Shown here piece after piece: positions 41,880 to 43,679 of a stretch of 64,000 nt of DNA. The stretch's first letter is position 1. Each line of letters begins with the position of its first letter. The position numbers and the translations under genes are program-made. The notes beneath the pieces were generated by a model. That model searched no databases. It saw nothing but the letters and a program-made list of their open reading frames with translations, and was not told where the DNA came from. Source of the DNA: Terriglobales bacterium (GTDB lineage Bacteria; Acidobacteriota; Terriglobia; Terriglobales; Acidobacteriaceae); assembly GCA_035457425.1 (NCBI GenBank), contig DATIBR010000052.1, forward strand, positions 1 through 64,000. The letters run 5' to 3'.

Positions 41880-42470
41880 CTACTTGTGCTGCGCGTGTGC
41901 CGCGTCGTCGCGCCCCACGCCGAGCGCGTCGGCCACGCGGTTGATGTAGTTGAACCACGAAGTGATGAGCGTGATCTGCAGGATGCCGCGGTCGTCGAAG
42001 CCGGCCGCTCGCAGCTTGTCATGATCTTTCGGCGAGCACTGCGTGGCGTCTTTCGTGACCTTCACCACGTAGTCGAGCATGGCGCGGTCCTCGGCCGGCA
42101 GGTCGGCCTTGGTGTAGTCGCGCTCGAGCTGCGCGACGAACTCCTGATCCAGCGTGACGCGACGCAGAAACTCTGCGTGGGCGCCGATTCAATACACGCA
42201 CCGGTTCGTCACCGAAACGACGGTGGTGATCATCTCGTGCTGGCGGCGCGTGAGCGGCAGCTCCGGCGACATCAGCGCGCCGAACGTGGCGAACGCGTGG
42301 TAGAGCGCCTGCGGAATGAGCGAGTGCGATTCCACGATCGACGCCCCGCCGCTCTCCGACGGGTGCACCGGCACCGCGTACTCGATCGGGTACAGCTCCT
42401 TCTGCGCTTCCATCGCCCGCAACAGTTCGGGCGAGGCCTCCTGCGGTTTGACCGTCTTGATCCAGGGCAT
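41880..42470 (-). CDS. AhpD-like peroxidase-related protein, probable selenoprotein (in-frame TGA = Sec94)
   Basis: Reading from ATG 42470 to TAG 41880 gives 196 residues interrupted only by one TGA at 42191-42189. The protein belongs to the alkylhydroperoxidase AhpD / carboxymuconolactone decarboxylase family (peroxidase-related enzyme branch): [36 protein letters not shown]-[TGA][12 protein letters not shown], then [24 protein letters not shown]. The family redox motif is CxxC(x)3H; here C91-V-Y-TGA94-I-G-A-H98 puts the TGA exactly at the second, resolving cysteine. The frame stays open for 102 sense codons after it. A stem-loop fit for a bacterial SECIS starts 11 bases downstream. Alternative: a Cys codon (TGC) mutated or misread as TGA. 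Sec machinery genes are not in this window. Confidence 0.82.
42162..42178 (-). promoter_or_regulatory. Candidate bacterial SECIS hairpin
   Basis: On the minus strand, ACGCAG-AGTTT-CTGCGT: a perfect 6-bp stem with a 5-base loop carrying G-U at loop positions 2-3. The loop G is 18 bases after the TGA. Family knowledge: bacterial SECIS elements sit just downstream of the UGA with a conserved G(U) in the apical loop read by SelB. A lower stem could extend through GCG/CGC with a CCC bulge. Confidence 0.65.
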
Positions 42471-42554: not shown

Positions 42555-43127
42555 ATGAAGCGCGCTCTCCGTGTGTTGCTCGTGCTCGCCTGCGGCGTCG
42601 CCCTGGCCTCCGCCGGCAACAAGGATAAGAAAAAGGTGAAGACGCCGGTGCCCGCCCTCGTCACCCAGGCGCAGTACGTCTACCTCACCAGCTACGACGG
42701 CCCCGAGACTTCGTTCGGCGTCTCGCCCGCCGACCGTCAGGCGCTCGCCACCGTGCAGGACGCCATCCGCAAGTGGGGCAAGTACAGGGTCACGCTCCGC
42801 CAGCAGGACGCCGACCTCATCCTGCTGGTGCGCGCCGGCCGCACGCTCGACGCTCGTGTCGGCGGCGGCGTCCACACCGGCAGCGACCGCCCCACGACCA
42901 CGACCGGCCCGAACACGCGCGTGGAAGTGAGTTCCTCCGGCCTTGAGGACGAGTTGGCGGTCTACCAGCGCGCTGCCGGCCTCAACTCCGCGCCGCTCTG
43001 GCGCGGCCTGATGGCCAACGGCCTGCAAGCTCCCGCCCCGGCTCTGGTCGAGAAGCTCCGCGCCGCCGTCGAGGAGACCGAAAAGGTCCTGAAAGAGCAG
43101 GAGCAGCAGAAGAAACAGAAGCCCTAG
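42555..43127 (+). CDS. Exported conserved protein, tandem paralogue 1
   Basis: A 190-residue protein with signal peptide (MKRALRVLLVLACGVALASA) followed by a KDKKKVK basic patch. Core: ALVTQAQYVYLTSYDGPE, a helix-strand unit AIRKWGKYRVTLRQQDADLILLVRAGR, a low-complexity Thr/Gly insert, then LEDELAVYQRAAGLNSAPLWRGLMANGL. No named family is recognised; the layout resembles small periplasmic alpha/beta domains. The next gene encodes a clear paralogue sharing all three core blocks. Divergent from the AhpD-like gene. Confidence 0.7.
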   Translation: MKRALRVLLVLACGVALASAGNKDKKKVKTPVPALVTQAQYVYLTSYDGPETSFGVSPADRQALATVQDAIRKWGKYRVTLRQQDADLILLVRAGRTLDARVGGGVHTGSDRPTTTTGPNTRVEVSSSGLEDELAVYQRAAGLNSAPLWRGLMANGLQAPAPALVEKLRAAVEETEKVLKEQEQQKKQKP

Positions 43128-43208
43128 GTGACCGCCGTCACTGCAGGAGCGCCACCACGCTTCTACGCTTCACGCTGGAGAGGTCCGCGACCTCTCCGGG
43201 AGGCGATT

Positions 43209-43679
43209 ATGAAACGCCTGGTCTGCGGAGCGCTCCTGCTGCTGTTGTTCGGGACCCTCGCGGCAGGGCAGCGCGAGAAGAAGCGCGTGATGCCCACGCT
43301 GATCGTGAACGCGCAGTACGTCTACGTCACGACCTACGAAGGTTCCGCGCCGCTGCCCCAGGTCTCGGTCGAGAACCTGCGCGCCATCGCCATAGTCGAG
43401 AACGCCATCAAGTCGTGGGGCCGCTACAGGGTGACGCAGCGCGCCGCCAACGCCGACATCATCATCCTGGTCAACGAAGGGCGGCCGTACGCTTCCAGCG
43501 GCGGCGGCAGCTTCGAGGACGAGCTCGCCATCTACGACGCGCGCGACGGCCTCAACAGCTCGCCGCTGTGGCGCGGCCTCATGGTCGACGGCCTCGAAGG
43601 CAACGCCCCGCTGGTGCAGCAGTTCCGCACCGAGGTCGAGGAAGCCGCCCGCCAGTTGCCGCAACCCAAAGGCGCGTAG
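43209..43679 (+). CDS. Exported conserved protein, tandem paralogue 2
   Basis: A 156-residue protein with signal peptide (MKRLVCGALLLLLFGTLAAG). It shares with its upstream neighbour TLIVNAQYVYVTTYEGS, AIKSWGRYRVTQRAANADIIILVNEGR and FEDELAIYDARDGLNSSPLWRGLMVDGLEGNAP, but lacks the Thr/Gly insert. The start is taken at the ATG after GGGAGGCGATT (43198 on). The pair arose by tandem duplication and has diverged substantially. Function unknown. Confidence 0.7.
   Translation: MKRLVCGALLLLLFGTLAAGQREKKRVMPTLIVNAQYVYVTTYEGSAPLPQVSVENLRAIAIVENAIKSWGRYRVTQRAANADIIILVNEGRPYASSGGGSFEDELAIYDARDGLNSSPLWRGLMVDGLEGNAPLVQQFRTEVEEAARQLPQPKGA

Follow-up and report, generated by a model that had tools for sequence, protein, structure and literature searches.

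An in-frame TGA followed closely by a small hairpin raises the question of whether the codon ends the protein or is read as selenocysteine (Sec). Such an arrangement lies on the minus strand of the 64,000-nucleotide stretch of DNA analyzed here (the window), where a stop called at the UGA would leave the gene at 42470-41880 truncated or in two pieces. An earlier note had taken the hairpin for a bacterial SECIS (bSECIS), a reading borne out by its fold, its conservation in UGA orthologues, the Sec machinery of the genome, and the catalytic Cys position taken by the UGA. From the sequence and predicted structure, from conservation and covariation, from the Sec genes of the genome, and from how Cys homologues differ, we regard the hairpin as almost certainly a bSECIS in an AhpD-like selenoprotein gene, where it would direct Sec insertion at codon 94.

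The gene (positions 41880 to 42470, minus strand; start ATG at 42470, stop TAG at 41882-41880) is a single open frame of 196 codons when the TGA is counted as a residue, otherwise undisrupted, and it encodes a 196-amino-acid protein with Sec94 (42189 to 42191, minus strand; motif NRC-VY-U-IGAH, i.e., CxxU). The product matched the Pfam CMD domain (PF02627; E = 5.9e-11) and belongs to NCBIfam TIGR01926 (peroxidase-related enzyme; 114.7 bits against a cut-off of 81.8). The related model NF041238 (AhpD_rel_CFYUT alkylhydroperoxidase-related [seleno]protein), likewise of AhpD type with CxxU, was rejected as a family for this protein (score, 57.4 bits; cut-off, 175). Alignment with homologues placed the UGA at the second Cys of a CxxC active site, and Cys occupies this position in homologues that include the solved structures 2pfx and 2prr. 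Residues E79, C91, Y93, and H98 were invariant over 18 aligned homologues. The proton relay of PA0269 is Glu36-Cys48-Tyr50-Cys51-His55 (PMC3141380); the spacing of E79-C91-Y93-U94-H98 is the same, with all five AhpD relay positions present. The AlphaFold model (mean pLDDT, 83.7) had the AhpD-core proteins 6k40, 2prr, and 2pfx as its best PDB matches. Mycobacterium tuberculosis AhpD and PA0269 share with the window protein the E/C/Y(H)/C/H proton relay, the helical hairpin, and the active-site layout (PMC3141380), whereas both have CxxC, with Cys where the window protein has Sec, and M. tuberculosis AhpD also differs from it in chain topology.

Gene neighbors, considered as a functional clue, varied among the relatives: two have citrate synthase there and the others have unrelated genes. 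No conserved operon or functional partner was found. At two acidobacterial loci (L050 and L054), the orthologue adjoins citrate synthase and a protein with a CdiA-CT RNase A domain, both absent beside the window gene. Elsewhere in the window, 42555-43127 and 43128-43679 (plus strand) encode tandem, mutually similar, small secreted-looking proteins with no Pfam or NCBIfam match.

The hairpin occupies 42162 to 42178 (minus strand) and starts 10 nt downstream of the UGA (42191-42189). The earlier note had given the sequence as ACGCAG-AGTTT-CTGCGT (42178-42173, 42172-42168, and 42167-42162), which is exact in letters and coordinates, and had placed the loop G 18 bases past the last base of the TGA, where it indeed lies (42171, minus strand, the third base of a Glu codon). 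Its description as a 6-bp stem with a 5-base loop held for the sequence and needed refining for the fold: the A and a U of the loop also pair, giving a 7-bp stem (ACGCAGA/UCUGCGU) and a GUU triloop. This form had a free energy of −8.2 kcal/mol (17-mer), against −7.5 for the form with a 6-bp stem and a 5-nt loop (AGUUU). Six of the 7 pairs had probabilities of 0.90 to 1.00 and the loop-closing A-U pair one of ~0.75. The 7-bp stem with a GUU triloop, its loop 17 nt after the UGA, is thus the favored hairpin model. RNA folding in six contexts (45 to 150 nt) returned no competing structure of the kind that the note had named as a danger to its reading; the hairpin was within the minimum-energy fold in all six.

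Published bSECIS models ask for a loop of 3 to 9 nt, an upper stem of 4 to 16 bp, a G as the first or second loop base, a UGA-to-apical-loop spacing of 16 to 37 nt, and a minimum free energy of −7.5 kcal/mol or lower (PMC13188914). The hairpin lies within these limits in stem and loop size in either form (7 bp with GUU or 6 bp with AGUUU), in the G (first in the triloop, second in the 5-nt loop), in spacing (17 nt to the GUU triloop, 16 nt with the 5-nt loop), and in free energy (−8.2 kcal/mol). Set against the consensus of bSECISearch type, it agrees in its 7-bp upper stem, 3-nt loop, G followed by U, 17-nt distance, and −8.2 kcal/mol, and no feature falls outside the model; the GUU triloop is as small as the model allows, and the spacing is near its minimum. 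Rfam was searched with the gene at E values up to 1 and with the entire window at gathering thresholds; neither search returned a SECIS family or anything else relevant.

Before the comparative evidence, the hairpin by itself was only moderately unusual. A Watson-Crick hairpin of 7 or 6 bp with G as first or second loop base arose at the same place for 0.4 to 0.9% of window positions, a similar one anywhere in the 8- to 32-nt zone for 2 to 5%, and the folding z-score of a 53-nt stretch, taken on a single sequence, was only −0.83 and is not informative. These numbers leave some room for the TGA to be a real stop, whether a nonsense mutation or an error of sequencing, with the gene a Cys gene in decay and the palindrome behind it due to chance: a loosely defined hairpin occurs in 2 to 5% of 60-nt window stretches, and metagenome assemblies contain errors. 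The orthologues make this account extremely improbable. Among 100 related genomes, 23, counting the window's own, carried an orthologue of at least 59% identity, and all 23 had the UGA. A search of 80 further named loci (Acidobacteria, Pyrinomonadaceae, Gemmatimonadetes, and Latescibacterota), some of which repeat genomes from the 100-genome set, found UGA at the site in 80/80, and a phylum-wide sample had it in all orthologues but one. Among named records, the nearest were acidobacterial genomes from metagenomes, and the window itself most likely derives from an acidobacterium (class Terriglobia). One pattern match with the codon GAA in the named-loci search looked spurious (another frame or gene) and was set aside. 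A real stop would hardly recur as the same TGA in every named locus and nearly all orthologues from the whole-genome search, nor would it leave the protein sequence beyond it conserved in several phyla, the hairpin codons frozen, and the frame otherwise intact; coding sequence is kept on both sides of the UGA over the whole length (56 to 78% identity).

The bSECIS reading, by comparison, accounts for what the orthologues preserve. In 104 distinct orthologous UGA genes, all 7 base pairs were kept in 99 and 6 of the 7 in the other 5, and the distance from hairpin to UGA was fixed. The codons of the hairpin were used far more uniformly than the same codons elsewhere in these genes: GCA in 102/104 (7% elsewhere), GAG, which carries the loop G, in 104/104 (65%), TTT in 102/104 (35%), CTG in 104/104 (48%), and CGT in 101/104 (7%). 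Counting from the UGA, only codons +4 to +9 were frozen, and codons +10 to +12 were free to vary; among the variants, CAT and GCG place G-U wobbles in the stem. The near-invariance of the hairpin sequence follows from the residues HAEFLR and the pairing together, which permit few other nucleotides. The expectation of the earlier note that UGA orthologues keep the stem and the loop G thus held, with GAG in 104/104 and at least 6/7 pairs in every gene, and it is this comparative evidence from 104 distinct genes that carries the conclusion that the hairpin, judged by sequence, is far beyond chance. The gene offers an example of a coding SECIS and its encoded protein constraining each other codon by codon.

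Two further observations concern these orthologues. The Tyr codon before the UGA (42194-42192) was TAT in 91/104, compared with 42% of Tyr codons elsewhere, possibly a UGA-context effect. One genome (G267) holds two divergent UGA copies (L189 and L190), with the hairpin in both.

More distant UGA homologues showed covariation. Three of them (L041, L043, and L044; 36 to 41% identity) encode HGEDLR and carry a hairpin of the type ACGGAGA-GGA-UCUCCGU, in which both bases of one stem pair have changed, C-G becoming G-C; compensatory change, which the earlier note had proposed looking for, was therefore present, with 100% of cells paired. In alignment A3, 252/252 cells were paired, three with both sides changed, and the covariation score was reached by 0/500 shuffles. 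In this register, only that one pair shows a change on both sides, because the encoded amino acids nearly freeze the stem. Other AhpD subfamilies with UGA had hairpins of the same design in other sequence and register.

The palindrome exists in DNA as well as in RNA and could in principle have nothing to do with the UGA and be an operator, repeat, or terminator, which we hold to be extremely unlikely. It is not a dispersed repeat, since the 3.1-Mb genome assembly contains a single exact copy, and no T-run follows it. Its distance to the UGA is fixed and its register is lost in Cys homologues, while the G-U wobbles tolerated in the stem (L044, L189, and L191) fit pairing in RNA better than a symmetric site in DNA.

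Homologues with Cys supplied the contrast to the bSECIS-bearing genes. A hairpin with a stem of 6 bp or more and a G as first or second loop base was found in 26/26 distant UGA homologues versus 4/16 Cys homologues, 12 of the 16 having no hairpin (Fisher p = 1.6e-7; the sequences are related, and the p-values given here ignore phylogeny). SelA scored over the cut-off in 52/52 genomes with a TGA inside the homologue match and was missing in 11/18 homologue-bearing genomes without one (p = 1.5e-8), counts that may include a few TGAs ending the gene within the match. The sole stop-free close orthologue found (L172; 61% identity) has TGC at the Sec position and Thr at the partner Cys position (TxxC), and its hairpin is lost (3/7 pairs). 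It belongs to a 99% complete genome (G112) with neither SelA nor SelB over the cut-off, a clean natural control for the SECIS role: a Cys orthologue, no hairpin, and no SelA.

Stem-loops can generally stimulate read-through, and the hairpin might act in this way without Sec, the UGA being read as Trp or another near-cognate residue. A distant homologue (L042) with TGG at the site would suit that proposal, which we nevertheless judge very improbable: nearly all stop-free homologues have Cys at the site, UGA forms were found solely in SelA-bearing genomes, the close orthologue whose genome lacks SelA carries Cys, and the bSECIS constraints all hold. In L042 itself, the TGG (Trp) corresponds to a TGA in its sister L041, the stem has one mismatch, and the genome (G096) keeps SelA and SelB.

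Decoding of the UGA as Sec would call on machinery that this genome encodes. A tRNA-Sec (72.7 bits; anticodon TCA) is present on another contig, and a tRNA search of the 64-kb window returned none; a second RF01852 match over the cut-off (on contig C12) was a tRNA-Ser and was rejected as tRNA-Sec. SelA (563 bits), SelB (337 bits, interrupted by a contig end, with the C-terminal piece at another contig end), and SelD (372.7 bits, with an in-frame TGA of its own) were also found. The genome thus has selA, selB, selC, and selD, as looked for in support of a selenoprotein gene, with SelB split by contig ends.

On the bSECIS reading, the hairpin would fold in the mRNA just downstream of the UGA, with its apical loop 17 nt away, and be bound by SelB carrying Sec-tRNA-Sec, so that selenocysteine would be inserted at codon 94 in place of termination. 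The predicted product is an all-helical protein of the AhpD/CMD fold, in which the C91-V-Y-U94 pair with E79, Y93, and H98 would form the AhpD proton relay; Sec94 would attack and Cys91 would resolve. We infer SelB binding, Sec insertion, chemistry, and substrate, taking the catalytic role and substrate from homologues, and by this analogy the protein is most likely a selenium-based peroxidase or thiol-disulfide reductase.

AhpD-like proteins of TIGR01926 with CxxU are known prokaryotic selenoproteins (example, MCB9421940.1; PMC13188914), and AhpD-like CXXU selenoproteins with a bSECIS have been described from the Sargasso Sea (PMC1088965). The window gene adds one more to those of TIGR01926, sharing the family model, the CxxU motif, and a bSECIS directly after the UGA. 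It differs in belonging to a clade whose SECIS is nearly invariant and which was found for the most part in Acidobacteriota and Gemmatimonadota (MCB9421940.1 enters this comparison by its listing), and the survey documents a widespread AhpD-like selenoprotein in these two phyla. Within the clade (Acidobacteriota, Gemmatimonadota, and Latescibacterota), which appears almost exclusively in the Sec form, one Cys orthologue was found, and this single replacement coincides with a genome lacking the Sec machinery and with Thr in place of the partner Cys (TxxC). We suggest, tentatively and with some doubt, that Sec may be functionally obligatory there; the SECIS has next to no room to change, being held by the encoded amino acids and by base pairing at once.

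Two other genes in the same genome are probable selenoprotein genes. One is the SelD gene (C127:38678-39604, L048), with U31, and the other (C90:7964-8353, L130) encodes a second AhpD-type protein, with CEYU. Each of their UGAs is followed, at 20 nt, by a hairpin of the same design as in the window gene, with 7 to 8 bp and the triloop GGC.
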